NCBI GenBank assembly: GCA_021802585.1
Contig: JAJZRQ010000018.1
Span: 1-40,727, forward strand
Origin: Chloroflexota bacterium
GTDB taxonomy: Bacteria > Chloroflexota > Limnocylindria > Limnocylindrales > CSP1-4
Direction of reading: 5' to 3'
DNA: 40,727 bases
Within the stretch, counting starts at the first letter, position 1. The number at the start of each line of letters is the position of its first letter. The translations under genes and the position numbers were made by a program. The notes beneath the pieces were generated by a model. The model did no database searches and had not been told where the DNA came from. It saw only the letters and a program-made list of their open reading frames with translations. Below are positions 2,559 through 34,378 of the stretch, piece after piece.

Positions 2559-3860
2559 TCAGGCGAACCGCAGCTCGTTGCGGAACGCGCCGGCGTCCTC
2601 GAGGCGCCGCCGGAGGGCGCCGAGGAACCGCGCCCCGAGCTCGCCATCGACGAGGCGATGGTCCGCCGCCAGGGTGAGCTTCATGATCGTCCGCACGGCG
2701 AGCCCGTCGCCGATCGCAACGGCCGTGGGAAGCGCGCTCGCGACGGCGAGGATCGCGGCCTCGCCAGGGTTGATGATCGCGCTGAACTCCTCGACGCCGA
2801 GCATCCCGAGGTTCGACACGGTGAACGTGCTGCCCGTCATGTCGTCGACCGGGAGCGCTCCCGCGCGGGCCCTCGCCGCGAGCGCCGCCGCCTGATCGTG
2901 GATCTCGCCGACCGTCAGGCGATCGGCGTCCCGGAGGACCGGCACGACGAGGCCGCCAGGGAGCGCGACCGCCACGCCGAGGTGGACCCGGCGGCGCGGC
3001 CACACCATGGCGCCGTCCGTGCGCGCGTTGACGTCGGGGAACTCGGCGAGCGTCCGGGCCGCGGCGGCGAGGACGAAGTCCGTCACCGAGAGGCTCGTCC
3101 CGGCCGCCTTCAGCTCCTGCCGGAGGGCGAGGAGGGCGGTGACGTCCACCGCGACGGTCACGGTGAAGTGCGGGGTCGACGTCCACGACGCGGTGAGGCG
3201 GTCGGCGATGACCCGGCGCATGCGGCTGAGCGGGCGGGGCGGCTCGACGCCGTCGACGGCCGACGGGGCGAGGGGGATCACGGCGGGCCGCCTCGCGGCC
3301 CCCGCCGCCGCGACCGCAGCCTGCACGTCGCGCTCGGTGATCCGGCCCCCGGGGCCGGTGCCCGCGATCGAGCGCGGGTCGACGCCGGCCTCCGCGGCGG
3401 CCCGGCTCGCACGCGGGCTGATCCGCAGGCGGCCCTCGACCGCGGGTCGCGCGCTCGACGCGGCCGGCACGGCGGACGCGGCGCGGGCGGGGGATGCGAG
3501 CTCCGCGGCGGACGCGGCGTCGGCGCGCCCTCCGGGGGACGCCGCGGGGGCGGGAGCCGGGGCCACGGCGGCGGACGCGCTCGCCGGCGCCGCGCCAGCC
3601 GCCGTCGCGGGGATCTCCTCGCCCGGGGCGCCGATCCAGGCACAGATCGCGTTCACCGGGACCGTGGCGCCCTCGGGGGCCACGATCCGCAGCAGCACGC
3701 CGTCGTCGAACGCCTCGACCTCCATCGTCGACTTGTCGGTCTCGATCTCGAAGAGGACGTCGCCCCGCTGCACCGGGTCGCCCTCCTTCGCGTGCCAGGC
3801 GACGACCGTGCATTCCTCGGTCATCTGCCCGGGCTTCGGCATGAGGATCGCGTGGGCCAT
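2559..3860 (-). CDS. 2-oxoacid dehydrogenase E2 (dihydrolipoamide acyltransferase)
   Basis: N-terminal lipoyl domain (ETDKSTMEVEAFDDG), PSBD (RISPRASRAAAEAGVDPRSIAGTGPGGRITERDV), catalytic DHRLVDG at C-terminus. Confidence 0.93.
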   Translation of the reverse strand: MAHAILMPKPGQMTEECTVVAWHAKEGDPVQRGDVLFEIETDKSTMEVEAFDDGVLLRIVAPEGATVPVNAICAWIGAPGEEIPATAAGAAPASASAAVAPAPAPAASPGGRADAASAAELASPARAASAVPAASSARPAVEGRLRISPRASRAAAEAGVDPRSIAGTGPGGRITERDVQAAVAAAGAARRPAVIPLAPSAVDGVEPPRPLSRMRRVIADRLTASWTSTPHFTVTVAVDVTALLALRQELKAAGTSLSVTDFVLAAAARTLAEFPDVNARTDGAMVWPRRRVHLGVAVALPGGLVVPVLRDADRLTVGEIHDQAAALAARARAGALPVDDMTGSTFTVSNLGMLGVEEFSAIINPGEAAILAVASALPTAVAIGDGLAVRTIMKLTLAADHRLVDGELGARFLGALRRRLEDAGAFRNELRFA

Positions 3861-3913: not shown

Positions 3914-6211
3914 TCACAGGAGCCCCTTCGCCGCCGCGCGGATGTCGTCGGCGCTCGGCAGGAACGCCCGCTCGAGGCTCTCGGCCTGCGGCGAGATCCC
4001 GCTGAGGGCGCCGATCCGGGCGATCGGGGCGTCGAGGTCGTCGAAGGCGTCGTGCTGGATCCGGGCGACGACCTCGTTCACGAAGCTGCCCGCGAGGACG
4101 GCCTGGCTGGCGACGACGCAGCGGCCGGTCCTGCGCACGGAGGCGAGGACCGTCTCGAGGTCGAGGGGGACGAGGCTCCGGAGGTCGACGACCTCGGCCG
4201 CGACGCCGTCCTCGGCCGCAAGGCGGTCGGCGGCGGCCAGCGCATCCGGCACCGCCGGGCCCCAGCAGACGATCGTGACGTCGGACCCCTTGCGGACGAC
4301 GTTCGCCACCCCGATCGGCACGAGGTGCTCGCCGGCGGGCACGATCCCGGTCGCCGGGTAGAGGCCCTGGCTCTCGACGAAGAGGACCGGGTTGTTCGTC
4401 CGGATCGCCGACTTCAGGAGCCCCTTGGCGTCCGCCGCGTTCGACGGGTAGACGACCCAGATGCCCGGGAGGTGCGTGAAGAGGCTCTCCAGCGACTGGC
4501 TGTGCTGGCCGCCGTAGCCCTTCCCGGCGCCCACCGACGCCCGGATCACGAGTGGCACCTCCACCTGGCCGCCGCTCATGTAGTGCCACTTCGCGGCCTG
4601 GTTCGCGATCTGGTCCGACGCCATGAGGGCGAAGTCCATGTACATGAGCTCGACGACGGGCCGGAGCCCGACGATCGCGGCGCCGACGGCGGTGCCGCAG
4701 ATCGCGGCCTCGCTGATCGGCGTGTTGAAGACGCGGTCCCGGCCGAACGACTCGAGGAGCCCCTTCGTGAGCTTGAACGCCCCGCCGTAGTCGGCCACGT
4801 CCTCGCCGTAGAAGATGACGCGCCGGTCGCGGAGCATCTCCTCCGCGAGCGCCTCGCGGAGCGCGTCGCGGTACGTGATCGCGCCGTCCGGACCCCGCTT
4901 CGAGACGGGGAGGGGAGCGAGCGGGACGACCGTCCCGTGCCGGCCCGGGACCACGTCCGCGGCCGTGTCCGTGTAGAGGAACTTCAGCGCGTCGGCCGGA
5001 TCGGGGTCGGTCGCCGCCGCCGCCCGGACCGCGGCCCGCGCCGTGCGTTCGCGGGCCTTCGCCTCGATCGCCGCGAGGCCGGCCTCGTCCGCGACGCCCG
5101 CCTCGACGATCTGTCGCTTCAGGCGCTCGATCGCGTCGATCGCCCGCCAGGCCGCCTCCTCCTCCTTCGTCCGGTACTCGTTCCGCGGGTCCGACAGGGA
5201 GTGGCCGTAGTACCGGTACGTGCTCGCCTCGACGAGGAACGGGCCCCGGCCCGCGCGGCAGAGCGCCGTCGCCCGCCGGACGGCGTCGCGGACGGCGAGG
5301 ACGTCCATGCCGTCGATCGTTTCGGCGTGCATGTCGTCGTCGGCGAAGCCGGCGCCGCGGCGGGCGAGGTGGCGGACGCCCATCACCTCCTCGTCGGTGC
5401 GGTGGGTCATCCCGTAGTGGTTGTTCTGGATGAAGTAGATGATCGGGAGCCCGTACGGGTGGTCGCCGGCGAGGTGGTTCGTCCACTGCGCCTGGGCGGC
5501 CCAGTTGAGGGACTCCAGGACGACGCCGTTGGCGTACGCGCCGTCGCCGGCGAAGCAGCAGACGACCCGGTCCGTCCGCTCGTACCGCTGGGCCATCGCG
5601 GCGCCGGTCGCGATCGGCACGCTGCCGCCGACGATCGCGTTCGCGCCGAGGTTTCCCGTCGAGAAGTCCCCGATGTGCATCCCGCCGCCCCGGCCCGCGC
5701 CGTAGCCTTCCTCCTTCCCGAAGAGCTCCGCGACGACCCGGTACACGTGCTCCTCGAGGGCGGCCTCGAGGAGCTCCTCGGGGGTCCCGTCGGCTGCCCC
5801 GCGCACGCGCGCGAGCAGCTCGTCCCGGGACATCCGGCGGATCGCGGCGAACCCCTTGGCGATCGCGTCCCCGTGCCCGCGGTGGCTGCTCGTGATGTTG
5901 TCGTCGATCCGCAGGACGCTGCAGGCCCCGACCGGGGACGCCTCCTGCCCGATCGAGACGTGCGTCGGGCCGCGGTAGTCGTACCCGGGAAGCGGGTCGT
6001 AGCCGCCCGAGCGGAGCCGCACGATCATCTCCTCGACCTCGCGGATCGCGAGCATCCCGTCGAGGAGGTCGAGGGCCTCCGCCGCGGTGATCGTGCCGGC
6101 CGCCAGCTCGGTGGCGAGCGTTCCCGCGTAGGCGAAGCCGCGGATTGTCCCGGCGGATTCCTCGAAGGGCTCGGTGGCGGGCCGATGGTCGCTCCGGTAG
6201 GCGGTCGCCAT
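3914..6211 (-). CDS. 2-oxoacid dehydrogenase E1, alpha and beta subunits fused (765 aa)
   Basis: E1-alpha part (HVSIGQEASPVGA, SSHRGHGDAIAKG, CCFAGDGAYANGVVLESLNWAA, TYRYYGHSLSDP) continuous in frame with E1-beta part (ALAEEMLRDRRVIFYGEDVADYGGAFKLTKGL, NTPISEAAICGTAVGAA, HSQSLESLFTHLPG). Confidence 0.92.
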   Translation of the reverse strand: MATAYRSDHRPATEPFEESAGTIRGFAYAGTLATELAAGTITAAEALDLLDGMLAIREVEEMIVRLRSGGYDPLPGYDYRGPTHVSIGQEASPVGACSVLRIDDNITSSHRGHGDAIAKGFAAIRRMSRDELLARVRGAADGTPEELLEAALEEHVYRVVAELFGKEEGYGAGRGGGMHIGDFSTGNLGANAIVGGSVPIATGAAMAQRYERTDRVVCCFAGDGAYANGVVLESLNWAAQAQWTNHLAGDHPYGLPIIYFIQNNHYGMTHRTDEEVMGVRHLARRGAGFADDDMHAETIDGMDVLAVRDAVRRATALCRAGRGPFLVEASTYRYYGHSLSDPRNEYRTKEEEAAWRAIDAIERLKRQIVEAGVADEAGLAAIEAKARERTARAAVRAAAATDPDPADALKFLYTDTAADVVPGRHGTVVPLAPLPVSKRGPDGAITYRDALREALAEEMLRDRRVIFYGEDVADYGGAFKLTKGLLESFGRDRVFNTPISEAAICGTAVGAAIVGLRPVVELMYMDFALMASDQIANQAAKWHYMSGGQVEVPLVIRASVGAGKGYGGQHSQSLESLFTHLPGIWVVYPSNAADAKGLLKSAIRTNNPVLFVESQGLYPATGIVPAGEHLVPIGVANVVRKGSDVTIVCWGPAVPDALAAADRLAAEDGVAAEVVDLRSLVPLDLETVLASVRRTGRCVVASQAVLAGSFVNEVVARIQHDAFDDLDAPIARIGALSGISPQAESLERAFLPSADDIRAAAKGLL

Positions 6212-28124: not shown

Positions 28125-28139
28125 AGGAGGAGGCCTGTC

Positions 28140-29195
28140 GTGCCCGAGACCATGGAGGCGCTCGTCGTCCTCGAGCCGAACCGGATGGAGATCCGCGCGG
28201 TCCCGATCCCGGTCCCCGGCCCGAACGAGGTGCTCGCGCGCGTCCGTGCCGTCTCGATCTGCGGCACCGACGCCCACCTCATCCGCGGCGACTACCCGGG
28301 GTTCTGGCCGCCCGCCTTCCCCTTCATCCCGGGGCACGAGTGGGCCGGGGAGATCGCGGCCCTCGGACCCGGCGTCGAGCTCTACGGCTGGAAGGTCGGC
28401 GACCGCGTCGCCGGGACCTCCCATGACGCCTGCGGCGTCTGCCAGAAGTGCGTCGAGGGCCGCTACAACCTCTGCGAGAACTACGGCCGGCCCGGCCTCC
28501 ACAAGCAGTACGGCCACAACGTCCAGGGCGCCGACGCCGAGTACGTCGTCCAGGGCGTGAAGACGATCTTCCCGCTCCCCGACGGCCTCACGTTCGAGGA
28601 CGGCGCCCTCGTCGACCCCGCGTCGATCGCCCTCCATGTCGCGAACCGCGGCGGGATCTCGCCCGGGGACACGGTCGCGATCACCGGCGCGGGGGCGATC
28701 GGGCTCCTCGGCGGTGACGCCGCCCGGATCCGGGGCGCGGCCCGGGTCATCGTCGTGGGCCGCGGGCACCGCCTCGCGAAGGCCGCCGCGATGGGCTTCG
28801 AGACGGTCGACGCCGCGGCCGGCGACCCCGTGGCCACGGTGCGCGCGATGACCGGTGGCTTCGGGGTCGACGTCGTCCTCGAGTGCGCGGGCGTGCCGGT
28901 CACCGTCCAGTGGGCGCTCGGCATGCTCCGCCGCGGCGGGCGCTGCGCCGCCGTCGGGATCCCGACCGTCGGCGTCGAGATCGCGATGCAGCGGCTCGTC
29001 CTCGACGAGCTCGAGCTCGTCGGGTCGCGCGCCTCGGCGGGCGAGATGCGGCGCGTCATGCCGCTCGTCGAGCAGGGCCGGATGCGCGTCCGGGACGTGA
29101 CGACCCATCGCTTCAGCCTGGCCGAGTACGCCCGCGCCATCGCCACGTTCAACGACCCCGCGAGCGGGGCCATCAAGATCATCGTCGCGCCCTGA
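28140..29195 (+). CDS. Zinc-dependent medium-chain alcohol dehydrogenase
   Basis: SICGTDAHLIRGDYP, GHEWAGEIAALGPGV, structural-Zn cysteines CGVCQKCVEGRYNLC, C-terminus THRFSLAEYARAIATFNDPASGAIKIIVAP. Confidence 0.93.
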   Translation: MPETMEALVVLEPNRMEIRAVPIPVPGPNEVLARVRAVSICGTDAHLIRGDYPGFWPPAFPFIPGHEWAGEIAALGPGVELYGWKVGDRVAGTSHDACGVCQKCVEGRYNLCENYGRPGLHKQYGHNVQGADAEYVVQGVKTIFPLPDGLTFEDGALVDPASIALHVANRGGISPGDTVAITGAGAIGLLGGDAARIRGAARVIVVGRGHRLAKAAAMGFETVDAAAGDPVATVRAMTGGFGVDVVLECAGVPVTVQWALGMLRRGGRCAAVGIPTVGVEIAMQRLVLDELELVGSRASAGEMRRVMPLVEQGRMRVRDVTTHRFSLAEYARAIATFNDPASGAIKIIVAP

Positions 29196-29258
29196 TCGGC
29201 CGGCCGCGCGGCCCCCCGACGCGCGGCCGGCCGGACGGGCGTCCAGGAGACCCGCTCC

Positions 29259-31448
29259 GTGCCCTACGTCTTCGACTGCGACCAGCGCCACGAGCTCTCC
29301 TTCCCGGAGCTCCGGCGCCTCATCGGCGGGAAGGCCGCGAACCTGTCGGTCATGGCCCGCGACCTCGGGCTCCCCGTCCCGCCGGCGTTCACGATCTCGA
29401 CGGCCGCCTGCAACGAGTACCTGGCGCGCGGCTGGCCGGACGCGCTGGACGGCGAGTTGCGGGAGCACATGGCGCGGATGGAGGAGCGCGTCGGGCAGCG
29501 CTTCGGCGACCCCGTGGAGCCGCTCCTCGTGAGCGTTCGCTCGGGGGCTCCGGTCTCGATGCCGGGGATGATGGACACGATCCTCAACCTCGGACTCAAC
29601 GACGCGACGGCCGCCGGCCTCGCGGCCCGCTCCGGGAGCCCGAAGTTCGCGGCCAACTGCCGGAAGCGGTTCGAGGCGATGTTCCGCGACATCGTCGGCG
29701 TGGAGACCGTGCCGGCCGACGCCTGGGTCCAGCTGCGCGCGGCGATCGAGGCGGTCTTCCGCTCGTGGAACAGCGACCGGGCCCGGACGTACCGCGAGCG
29801 GGAAGGGATCCCCGACGACCTCGGCACGGCCGTGACGGTCCAGGCGATGGTCTTCGGCAACCGGAGCGTCGACTCCGGGACCGGCGTCCTCTTCACGCGC
29901 AACCCGGCGACCGGCGAGCCCCTCCTCTACGGCGACGTCATGTTCAACGCCCAGGGCGAGGACGTGGTCGCAGGGACCCACAGCCCGCAGCCGATCGCCG
30001 TCCTCGACGAGCGGATGCCGGCCGTCGGCCGCGAGCTGCGCGACTACGCGGCGCGCCTCGAGCGTCACAACGCCGACCTCTGCGACATCGAGTTCACGAT
30101 CGAGCACGGGAAGCTGTGGATGCTCCAGTGCCGGGTCGGCAAGCGCAGCCCGCAGGCCGCGCTCCGGATCGCGGTCGACATGGCCGAGGACCCCGGATTC
30201 CCGCTCACCCGGGCGGAGGCGGTCCGGCGCATCGCGGGAATCCTCGCCGACCCCCCGCAGCGGATGACGGAGCGCGTCGACGCCGGCCCTCCGCTGACGA
30301 CCGGCCTGCCCGCCTCGCCGGGCGTGGCCTGCGGCGAGATCGTGACGTCCCCCGACGCCGCCGTGGAGGCCGCCGCGGCCGGCCGGGCCGTCATCCTCGT
30401 GCGCGCCGAGACGTCGCCCGACGACGTGCACGGGATGGCGAAGGCCGCCGGCATCCTCACCGCCACGGGCGGCCTTGCGAGCCACGCCGCGGTCGTCGCG
30501 CGCGGCTGGGGGATCCCGGCCGTCGTCGGCGCATCCGCCGTCACGGTCGGCGAGGCAGAGGTCGTCATCGGGGACTGCACGCTCGCCGCCGGCGAGACGA
30601 TCACGATCGACGGCGCGACCGGCGACGTCTTCGCCGGTGCGGCGGCCGGTGCGGCGACGGTCGTCCCCGAGGTCGCCACGCTCCGCGCGTGGGCTCGCGA
30701 GCTCGGCATCGCGGTCGGGGAGGAGGCCGTCGGCGAGGCTGCCGCGGGCGAGGCTGCGGCGGGCGAGGCTGCGGCGGGCGCCCAGCCGGGGCCGGCGACG
30801 TCCGGGCAGCCCGGCGCGGGGCCAACCGTGCTGACGACGGATGGCGTCCTGCGCGTACTCGTCGTGAAGGGCTACGGCACGCCGGAGAGCATCGCCGCTG
30901 CGCTCCTCTCCACGCCCGACGAGATCGGGGACCTCCTCGACCGGCTCGTCGCCGACGGGCTGGCGGAGATCGCCGCCGGGTCGTTCCGGCTCACCCGCGA
31001 CGGGAAGGCCGTGGGGGCGGAGCGGATGGCCGCCGACCGCGAGGCGTGGGGGACCGCGAACGCGGTCGCCGCCCTCGACGCGTTCCTCGCCCTCGACCAG
31101 CGGATGAAGGCGACCGTCACGGCCTGGCAGATGCGGGAGGTCGACGGCGCCCCGGCGTTCAACGACCACACCGACCCGGGGTACGACGCCGGCGTGCTCG
31201 CCGACCTCGCGGCCCTCCATGCCGACGCCGCGGCCTGGCTGCGGCCCCTCGTCGCGGGCCTCCCCCGCCTCGTCGCGTACCTCGAGCGCCTCGACCGTGC
31301 CAGCGCGGCCGCCCAGGCCGGTGACCATCGGTACATCGCGTCCCCGCGCGTCGACAGCTACCACGGCGCCTGGTTCGAGCTGCACGAGGACCTGATCCAG
31401 CTGGCGGGTCGCAGCCGGGCGGACGAGGTCGCCGCCGGCCGCGCCTGA
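29259..31448 (+). CDS. PPDK-like protein: ATP-binding and phospho-His domains, PEP/pyruvate barrel absent, wHTH-like C-terminal extension
   Basis: GGKAANLSVMARDLGLPVPPAFTIST, RSGAPVSMPGMMDTILNLGLN, TGVLFTRNPATGEP, TGGLASHAAVVARGWGIPAVVG; C-terminus LRVLVVKGYGTPESIAAALLSTPDEIGDLLDRLVADGLAEI. Confidence 0.88.
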   Translation: MPYVFDCDQRHELSFPELRRLIGGKAANLSVMARDLGLPVPPAFTISTAACNEYLARGWPDALDGELREHMARMEERVGQRFGDPVEPLLVSVRSGAPVSMPGMMDTILNLGLNDATAAGLAARSGSPKFAANCRKRFEAMFRDIVGVETVPADAWVQLRAAIEAVFRSWNSDRARTYREREGIPDDLGTAVTVQAMVFGNRSVDSGTGVLFTRNPATGEPLLYGDVMFNAQGEDVVAGTHSPQPIAVLDERMPAVGRELRDYAARLERHNADLCDIEFTIEHGKLWMLQCRVGKRSPQAALRIAVDMAEDPGFPLTRAEAVRRIAGILADPPQRMTERVDAGPPLTTGLPASPGVACGEIVTSPDAAVEAAAAGRAVILVRAETSPDDVHGMAKAAGILTATGGLASHAAVVARGWGIPAVVGASAVTVGEAEVVIGDCTLAAGETITIDGATGDVFAGAAAGAATVVPEVATLRAWARELGIAVGEEAVGEAAAGEAAAGEAAAGAQPGPATSGQPGAGPTVLTTDGVLRVLVVKGYGTPESIAAALLSTPDEIGDLLDRLVADGLAEIAAGSFRLTRDGKAVGAERMAADREAWGTANAVAALDAFLALDQRMKATVTAWQMREVDGAPAFNDHTDPGYDAGVLADLAALHADAAAWLRPLVAGLPRLVAYLERLDRASAAAQAGDHRYIASPRVDSYHGAWFELHEDLIQLAGRSRADEVAAGRA
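30735..30779 (+). repeat. 15-bp coding tandem repeat x3 (EAAAG linker)
   Basis: gaggctgccgcgggc / gaggctgcggcgggc / gaggctgcggcgggc. Confidence 0.85.
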
Positions 31449-31485: not shown

Positions 31486-32256
31486 GTGTCCCTTGCCGGT
31501 CGCCGGATCATCGTCACCGGCGCGTCGAGCGGGCTGGGCGCGGCCACGGTCCGCCATCTGGCCGGGCTGGGCGCCGGCGTCCTCGCGGTCGCGCGCCGCG
31601 GCGACCGCCTGGAGCGGCTTGCGCATGACCTCGCCGACGCCCCCGGCCGCGTCGTCCCGTTCCGCGCCGACGTCACGCTCGACGTCGATGCCCGGGCGAT
31701 GGTCGCCGCCGCCGCCGAGGCGTTCGGCGGCGTCGACGTCCTCGTGAACAACGCCGGCAGCGAGGTCCAGGGCCCGATCGACGCGCTGAGCGACGCCGAC
31801 TTCGAGGGGATGTTCCGGGCGAACGTCGTGAGCGTCGTCGTCTGCACGCGCGCCGCGCTCGGCGAGCTCCGCGTCAGCCGGGGCGCCGTGATCAACCTCG
31901 GCTCGACCGTCGTCTCCCGGCCGCCGCGCGGCCGCTTCGGCTACGTCGCGAGCAAGGGGGCGGTGGAGGCGATGAGCCGGGCGCTCGCGCTCGACCTCGG
32001 GCGCGACGGCATCCGCGTCAACGTCATCCGGCCGGGGATCATCCCGTCGGAGCTCCGCGGGATGACGGAGGAGGCCGAGCGGGCGAAGCTCGCGACGGGG
32101 GTCGCCTTCGGCCGGCAGGCGCTCTCCGCGGTGGGCGACGCCCGCGATGTCGCCGAGGCGGTCGCCTGGCTGTGCGGCGCCGGCGGCCGCTGGGTGACCG
32201 GCGCCGTCATCGACGTCGACGGCGGCTTCACGCTCGGCGCGGCCGACGTCCTCTGA
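31486..32256 (+). CDS. Short-chain dehydrogenase/reductase
   Basis: IIVTGASSGLGAATVRHLA, LVNNAGSEVQG, GYVASKGAVEAMSRALALDLG. Confidence 0.93.
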   Translation: MSLAGRRIIVTGASSGLGAATVRHLAGLGAGVLAVARRGDRLERLAHDLADAPGRVVPFRADVTLDVDARAMVAAAAEAFGGVDVLVNNAGSEVQGPIDALSDADFEGMFRANVVSVVVCTRAALGELRVSRGAVINLGSTVVSRPPRGRFGYVASKGAVEAMSRALALDLGRDGIRVNVIRPGIIPSELRGMTEEAERAKLATGVAFGRQALSAVGDARDVAEAVAWLCGAGGRWVTGAVIDVDGGFTLGAADVL

Positions 32257-32307
32257 GACCCGCCGCGGGACGATCCGCGCCGCCGCCTGCCGCCGTGACC
32301 GTGCGGG

Positions 32308-32435
32308 TCAGGGCGCGACGATGATCGTGATGGCCCTGCTCGAGCGGTCGTTGAACGTGGCGATGGCGCGGGCGTGCTGGGCCAGGCTGAGGCGATGGGT
32401 CGTCACGAGACGAGCGCCTCCATGGTCTCGGGCAC
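32308..32435 (-). pseudogene. Internally deleted copy of the Zn-ADH gene at 28140-29195
   Basis: Minus strand reads GTGCCCGAGACCATGGAGGCGCTCGTC (VPETMEALV, identical to the ADH start) then directly GTGACGACCCATCGCCTCAGCCTGGCCCAGCACGCCCGCGCCATCGCCACGTTCAACGACCGC...ATCATCGTCGCGCCCTGA (ADH C-terminus). Confidence 0.88.
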
Positions 32436-32516
32436 GGCGGGCCTCCCGGGCGAGGGTGGGGCGGAGAAGCAGGCCCGCGCCGGCGGGGGCCGGCTCGGGC
32501 AGCGACGCGGGCGGCG

Positions 32517-33449
32517 TCAGGCGCCGGAGATCGCCCCCGTGAGCTTGTCGTAGAGCGAGGCGGCGTTGAGGTTCTGGATGTAGTCGAGCATGTAGCCCTG
32601 GCCGATGTCGACGGGCCCGAAGCGGTCCCGGAAGTCGATCCGGGCGATCGTCTCGTCGCGCGACCACCCGTTCGCGACGGCGGTGGCCACCGCCGCCTTC
32701 CACTCCATGAGGTGGGAGCGCTGGACGTCGAGGTACGACTTCGCGACGACCGGCCCGTGGCCGGGCACGATCCAGTCGACGTCGAGGGTCCGGATCCGCT
32801 CGAGCGCCGCGAGCCACTGCTCGACGTCGGAGGTCATGAGCCAGGTCTGGCAGCCGGAGAAGATCGTGTCCCCGGTGAAGACGACCCGCTCCTCGGGGAC
32901 GTGGACGGCGATCTGCCCGGGCGTGTGGCCCGGCGTGTGGAGCAGGTTGAACGTGTGGTCGCCGACGCGGAGGGTGAGGTCGCCGGTGAAGACGATCCGG
33001 CCCTTGTTCGGGTCGCGGTCGTACTCCGCGCGGTCGGGCCAGAGGGCGACGCCCTCCGGGTCGTCGAGGTCGGTGCCCTTCGCGTTGTCCCCGGGCACGG
33101 ACTCGTACGCGTACGCGAAGGGGTCGAGCTCGGGGAAGACGACCATGAACCGGTCGTAGACGCCCTGGTGGTGGACGACCGTGCCAGCGCCCCGGAAGTA
33201 GTAGTTCCCGAAGATGTGGTCGACGTGGTGCTCGGTGTTGATGACGTAGCGGATCGGGCCCCGCGACTCGGCGAGGGCCCGCATCGCGACGGCCTTCGTC
33301 GGGAGCTGCGGCGTGTCGATGACGACGACGCCGTCCGACGTCGTGACGAAGCTCGGGTTGCAGCCCCGGAGCTTCGTGTTCGTGAAGACGTTCGACGTCA
33401 CCGGCTCCATCGCGATCGAGCCGGGCCGGGTGGCGGGGGAGGTGGTCAC
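32517..33449 (-). CDS. MBL-fold metallo-hydrolase
   Basis: VINTEHHVDHIFGNYYF, LLHTPGHTPGQIAVHVPEERVVFTGDTIFSG, WIVPGHGPV. Confidence 0.9.
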   Translation of the reverse strand: MTTSPATRPGSIAMEPVTSNVFTNTKLRGCNPSFVTTSDGVVVIDTPQLPTKAVAMRALAESRGPIRYVINTEHHVDHIFGNYYFRGAGTVVHHQGVYDRFMVVFPELDPFAYAYESVPGDNAKGTDLDDPEGVALWPDRAEYDRDPNKGRIVFTGDLTLRVGDHTFNLLHTPGHTPGQIAVHVPEERVVFTGDTIFSGCQTWLMTSDVEQWLAALERIRTLDVDWIVPGHGPVVAKSYLDVQRSHLMEWKAAVATAVANGWSRDETIARIDFRDRFGPVDIGQGYMLDYIQNLNAASLYDKLTGAISGA

Positions 33450-33464: not shown

Positions 33465-34250
33465 CTACTGGGTCGCGGTGAGGCCGCCGTCGATCCCGAG
33501 GATCTGCCCGGTGACGAACGACGAGGCCGCGGAGCAGAAGAAGATCGCCGCGCCGGTGAGGTCATCCGTGCCGCCGACCCGGCCGAGCGGGATCCGGCCC
33601 ACGATCCCGGCCTTGAACGCCGGGTCGTCGAGGAGCATCGCCACCTGCGGCGTGTCGACGAACGTCGGGGCGATCGCGTTCACGGTGATCCCGTGCTTCG
33701 CCCACTCCGTCGCCCACTGGCGCGTCAGCGAGCTGATCGCGCCCTTCGCTGCGACGTAGGCCGAGTACCCGGCGTTGATCCCGAGGGTCGCCCGGACCGA
33801 GGAGATGTTGAGGACCCGCCCGCCGTGGCCGGCGGCGATCATCGCCTTCACCGCCGCCTGGGTCGCGAGGAGCGTGCTCCGGAGGTTGAGCTCCATGATC
33901 CAGTCCCAGGCGTCGCGCGGGTAGGCCTCGGCGTCGAAGAGGACCCGGCCGGCGCCGCCACCCACCGCGTTGACGATGATGTCGAGGCGCCCGAAGCGCT
34001 CGACCGTCGCCGCGACGGCCCGCTCGCAGTCGGCCTCGTTCGTCACGTCCGCCCCGAGGGCGAGGACGTCGCCGCCGGCTGCCCGGATCGGCGCCGCGGC
34101 GGCCTCGGCCTTCTCCTCTGTCTGGTCGACGATCGCAACGCGCGCGCCCGCCCCGACGAGCGCCTTCGCCATCGCCGAGCCGATCGCACCGCCGCCCCCG
34201 GGGATGATGGCGACGCGACCGTCGAGGCTGAAGACATCGAGCTGGCTCAT
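33465..34250 (-). CDS. Short-chain dehydrogenase/reductase
   Basis: GRVAIIPGGGGAIGSAMAKALVGAGARVAIVDQ, SAYVAAKGAISSLTRQWATEW, GQILGIDGGL. Confidence 0.92.
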   Translation of the reverse strand: MSQLDVFSLDGRVAIIPGGGGAIGSAMAKALVGAGARVAIVDQTEEKAEAAAAPIRAAGGDVLALGADVTNEADCERAVAATVERFGRLDIIVNAVGGGAGRVLFDAEAYPRDAWDWIMELNLRSTLLATQAAVKAMIAAGHGGRVLNISSVRATLGINAGYSAYVAAKGAISSLTRQWATEWAKHGITVNAIAPTFVDTPQVAMLLDDPAFKAGIVGRIPLGRVGGTDDLTGAAIFFCSAASSFVTGQILGIDGGLTATQ

Positions 34251-34364
34251 GCGCTCCCTCCCGGGCCGGGTCGGCCCGGCGTCCGTCATCGTGTCGTCCG
34301 GCCCGCGGAACCGCGACCGGCGGGGGTCGGAACGCCGTCGGCCGTCGCCGACCGCGCGACGTTT

Positions 34365-34378
34365 CATCGATTATCGAG
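34365..34378. promoter_or_regulatory. Regulon operator site 5 (ATCGATTATCGA)
   Basis: CATCGATTATCGAG abutting the -10 of the SDR-MBL promoter; same geometry as site 2. Confidence 0.75.

Follow-up and report, generated by a model that had tools for sequence, protein, structure and literature searches.

A 139-nt relic on the minus strand (32446-32308) of the analysed window, a 40,727-nucleotide stretch of a Chloroflexota draft genome (contig JAJZRQ010000018.1), consists of the two ends of a zinc-dependent dehydrogenase gene (ADH) fused to each other. It is an ordinary pseudogene remnant, a dead gene at a late stage of deletion. Most probably it is what is left of ADH2, the inverted ADH copy that follows the MBL-fold gene in related genomes, and this copy would have been converted by the nearby ADH1 while still whole and then deleted internally. 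The features concerned are listed in Table 1.

Table 1. Coordinates of the relic, its component pieces and the neighbouring genes in the window.
Feature	Position	Strand	Basis or remark
ADH1, intact zinc-dependent medium-chain dehydrogenase, 3' of the cyclase gene; other inverted arm	28140-29195	+	Pfam PF08240, PF00107; ADH1 clade in tree
PPDK-like gene, between both arms	29259-31448	+	PF01326, PF00391
SDR1, convergent neighbour of the relic	31486-32256	+	PF00106 / PF13561
3' piece of relic	32308-32407	-	Last 100 nt of ADH including TGA; 93/100 identical to 29096-29195
Old-frame end of 3' piece	32308-32407	-	VTTHRLSLAQHARAIATFNDRSSRAITIIVAP-stop
Residual frame VPETMEALVS-stop, made by the join	32403-32435	-	Direct sequence reading
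Deletion join, one unmatched base	32408	-	~928 nt net missing versus ADH1
5' piece of relic	32409-32435	-	ADH codons 1-9, GTG...GTC; 27/27 identical to 28140-28166
RBS-like leader GGAGGCCCGCC (ADH1 counterpart GGAGGCCTGTC)	32436-32446	-	Comparison with ADH1
MBL-fold gene, immediately 5' of the relic; in relatives intact ADH2 comes next	32517-33449	-	PF00753; synteny
SDR2, in one gene row with MBL and upstream of it	33465-34367	-	Synteny

The two pieces of the relic have the same order and orientation as in ADH1. Together, the leader and 5' piece (32446-32409) match 28129-28166 at 36 of 38 positions, and both mismatches fall in the 11 nt 5' of the start codon. Homology is limited by the RBS-like segment at one end and by the stop codon at the other. 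Unguided detection recovered the same pairings as inverted repeats, one of 105 nt at 91% (29096-29200 / 32303-32407) and one of 38 nt at 95% (28129-28166 / 32409-32446). In a DNA search of the whole draft genome the 3' and 5' pieces gave E-values of 5e-37 and 4e-10; given these values and the colinearity of the pieces, chance similarity is excluded. The source genome has no other close ADH, the next best being only 35-36% identical. Pfam returned no match for the 35-residue translation of the 3' piece, as its short length predicts. The unmatched base at the join is a T on the relic strand, and the net deficit of 928 nt (309.3 codons) shifts the frame, so that significant homology to a functional gene is combined with an inactivating lesion. 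The initial annotation had described an inverted, internally deleted ADH relic 3 kb from the intact gene, with RBS-like DNA and nine identical first codons retained, about 310 codons lost, some 33 last codons kept and an early stop created at the join. The relic is real and this description of it holds, with coordinates and counts right to within a few bases. A repeat-mediated deletion was considered and rejected, as there is neither a direct repeat nor a repeat family at the join.

The annotation had also placed the relic just 3' of a convergent MBL gene. MBL does lie directly upstream, and it is convergent with SDR1 yet co-directional with the relic. Between the inverted arms, the PPDK-like protein has 729 aa, in which Pfam recognises just the ATP-binding and mobile domains and not the C-terminal PEP/pyruvate barrel; a GEAAAG-type repeat occurs in its gene near 30711-30790.

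We searched genomes of the same genus and the same family and mapped gene order using the window's own proteins. In the typical family layout, coxM-coxL-cyclase-ADH1-PPDK-SDR1 faces the row SDR2-MBL-ADH2, which lies on the opposite strand. Seven family members carry ADH2 in inverted orientation between SDR1/PPDK and MBL, either intact or truncated by a contig. Both copies are whole, inverted and on a single contig in G073 (L150), ADH2 is whole after MBL in G072 and G001, and it is interrupted by the end of a contig in G027, G123, G120 and G119. The annotation had proposed to look between the SDR and MBL genes for a second ADH of full length; three relatives have one there, an intact positional counterpart of the relic. 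The relic occupies the ADH2 site and is, by position, the orthologue of ADH2. No clear alignment with the G001 counterpart was obtained for the spacer that separates the relic from MBL.

Six genus members were seen, and in five of them ADH2 is damaged or missing. It is partly deleted in two, the relic's own genome and G005, where it is reduced to codons 2-103 followed by a spacer before PPDK, a lesion unlike that of the relic. In the other three (G002, G003 and G004) no ADH2 was found beside MBL; in G004 the MBL match (L169 / L198) has an in-frame TAG and the next gene is not an ADH. Three further genomes (G059, G071 and G065) have their sole ADH in the inverted position beside PPDK, with none found after the cyclase. 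A family-wide search for the same scar returned ends of ADH genes and short matches due to chance, and no second copy. In two genomes (L042 in G032 and L160 in G074) MBL and PPDK are co-directional and ADH lies 2.4 kb further on, a rearranged order that an earlier flip of the PPDK segment might have left. In three genomes, strong hairpin-like inverted repeats were seen by eye in the stretch from the stop of MBL to the start of ADH2 (L150 ~3955-3995, L151 ~3675-3710 and L201 ~150-205); they might be a terminator or an attenuator upstream of ADH2.

In a maximum likelihood tree of 28 ADH copies, the ADH1 clade (97/98) is separate from the ADH2 copies, and ADH1 and ADH2 within one genome are about 82-86% identical over comparable length. 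The one exception to the labels is the ADH adjoining the cyclase in G021, which groups with ADH2. This gene (L045, 9538-10593) has the Asp-Arg of the ADH2 type at codon 340; it stands immediately before MBL, and both are on one strand. Based on the separate groups and the within-genome identity, ADH1 and ADH2 are old paralogues whose duplication predates the genus and is shared by the family, so the local ADH1 is not the original parent of the relic. This revises the initial annotation, which took the local Zn-ADH as parent and proposed an inverted duplication followed by one large deletion: an undeleted inverted copy does stand at this site in relatives, the duplication is old and family-shared, and ADH1 is a paralogue.

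Placement of the relic by sequence points to the local ADH1. When tried on every branch of the ADH tree, the relic fits best with local ADH1, 22 lnL units above the next placement and 36 above the ADH2 clade. The signal is spread across both pieces and includes codon 321 (ACG), shared with local ADH1 and absent from other ADH1 and ADH2 copies. Codons 340-341 are excepted; there the ADH2 clade is favoured by 7 lnL units. Codon 340 encodes Arg in the relic and in all 11 ADH2 copies compared, against Pro in all ADH1 copies compared. These codons may be a small unconverted ADH2 island, one that spans two sites only and that two chance substitutions could mimic. The ADH2 ancestry of the relic is thus suggested by its position, its strand and this two-site island.

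Gene conversion between ADH1 and ADH2 can be seen directly in four relatives, whose in-genome copies share identical runs of 120 nt (G120), 113 nt (G119), 99 nt (G123) and 98 nt (G027). Third-position permutation gave p values of 0.0002-0.002 for these runs, which exceed cross-genome expectation: over the same spans, those of the longest third-position runs, ADH1-ADH2 pairs from different genomes agree at 55-65% of third positions on average. In G119 the 5' ends of the two genes are identical over 114/114 nt and over ~30 nt of upstream leader. Conversion of ADH2 by ADH1 in the source genome is the likely explanation of the relic's likeness to ADH1, judging from its placement in the tree.

The same placement, codon 321 included, would also follow if, in this lineage and without involvement of the older ADH2, a fresh inverted copy of ADH1 had entered the gap between SDR1 and MBL and later undergone an internal deletion. 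We consider this unlikely. The site is not a new one, as relatives of the same genus and family hold ADH2 there, and chance would have had to put a fresh copy into that very gap with matching strand and order. This reading would also leave to chance that homology stops at the leader and the stop codon, and two chance changes would be needed for the ADH2-type Arg340-Ser341. The similarity to ADH1 is already covered by conversion of the kind seen in four relatives.

Many contigs of the relatives stop inside ADH, at or close to stretches over which ADH1 and ADH2 are identical (contigs C64, C110 and C157 of G027, C9 and C39 of G123, C137, C28 and C32 of G119, C88 of G120, C295 of G072 and C150 of G001; loci L034-L036, L152, L153, L155, L157 and L199-L202). 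These identical stretches account for the contig ends, and short-read assemblies break on the inverted ADH pair. The source genome, the only one of its species among the genomes compared, is itself a draft of 141 contigs, and an assembler might have fused the two ends of a whole ADH2. Such a collapse, raised in the initial annotation as a possible cause of the relic, is very improbable and largely answered by the relic itself, which carries substitutions of its own. Its longest exact word in common with ADH1 is 30 nt and no word is shared at the join, which makes k-mer collapse unlikely. Moreover, the repeat in relatives yields a contig end and not an internal deletion.

Least probable of all is that the remnant was kept for a role. 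It forms an inverted 100-nt match directly after SDR1, so that an ADH1-PPDK-SDR1 read-through transcript would carry a 100-nt antisense copy of the 3' end of ADH1, 93% paired, as a long-range hairpin that could affect transcript stability, or it might shape the end of the MBL transcript; the same remnant is found in no relative, however, and its substitutions hit conserved sites. Leaving aside the two ADH2-like sites, we count five changes in the 3' piece (F-L, E-Q, Y-H, G-R and K-T), and all are non-synonymous. Four of the five lie at nucleotide sites invariant among 22 copies, for which the chance is about 0.04, and three of the five in the wider set of 30 copies. These substitutions appear to fit neutral drift, by a weak test with only five substitutions, and the relic presumably lacks a function.

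We propose the following history for a converted and then deleted ADH2. The gene would have closed a minus-strand row, SDR2-MBL-ADH2, facing the row cyclase-ADH1-PPDK-SDR1 on the plus strand, with ADH1 and ADH2 as an old inverted pair ~3 kb apart. Homologous recombination may have copied patches repeatedly between the whole copies, making ADH2 in this genome ADH1-like. With ADH1 sufficient, ADH2 would have become dispensable and been lost through redundancy. A single internal deletion (~928 nt, with little or no microhomology) may then have taken codons 10 to ~318, and the leftover 139 nt, with a frame of 10 residues at most, would now be drifting. A wider proposal, which we regard as doubtful, is that the inverted pair of ADH1 and ADH2 actively serves as a substrate for recombination throughout the family. 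It would homogenise the two genes by conversion, perhaps flip the PPDK-SDR1 segment from one of the opposing gene rows to the other, and be dissolved repeatedly by the loss of one arm; the relic would then be one end state.

Our literature search found nothing directly on point on gene conversion between inverted bacterial paralogues. Duplicated bacterial genes, such as tufA and tufB, evolve in concert by gene conversion. As in that case, the ADH copies within a genome share long identical patches and cross-genome pairs do not. Unlike tufA and tufB, they are metabolic genes that lie close together in inverted orientation, with patchy conversion and an overall identity of 82-86%. As a deletion remnant, the relic is of an already known kind, for which the pseudogene dynamics and deletional bias described in Salmonella offer a comparison (PMC2916853). 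Like bacterial pseudogene remnants, it represents a redundant gene inactivated and lost by a kilobase-scale deletion, with short ends syntenic with intact orthologues; in contrast to them it is unusually short and symmetric, preserving both ends of the gene, and a living paralogue lies inverted 3 kb away.

The relic neatly illustrates gene loss at a late stage in an uncultured lineage of bacteria, and it carries a warning that the sequence placement of a short relic can follow the converting donor and not the locus. It is more useful for having brought to light an inverted ADH pair that occurs across the family and undergoes conversion in patches, a pair that explains why assemblies break inside ADH in the metagenomes of these organisms.
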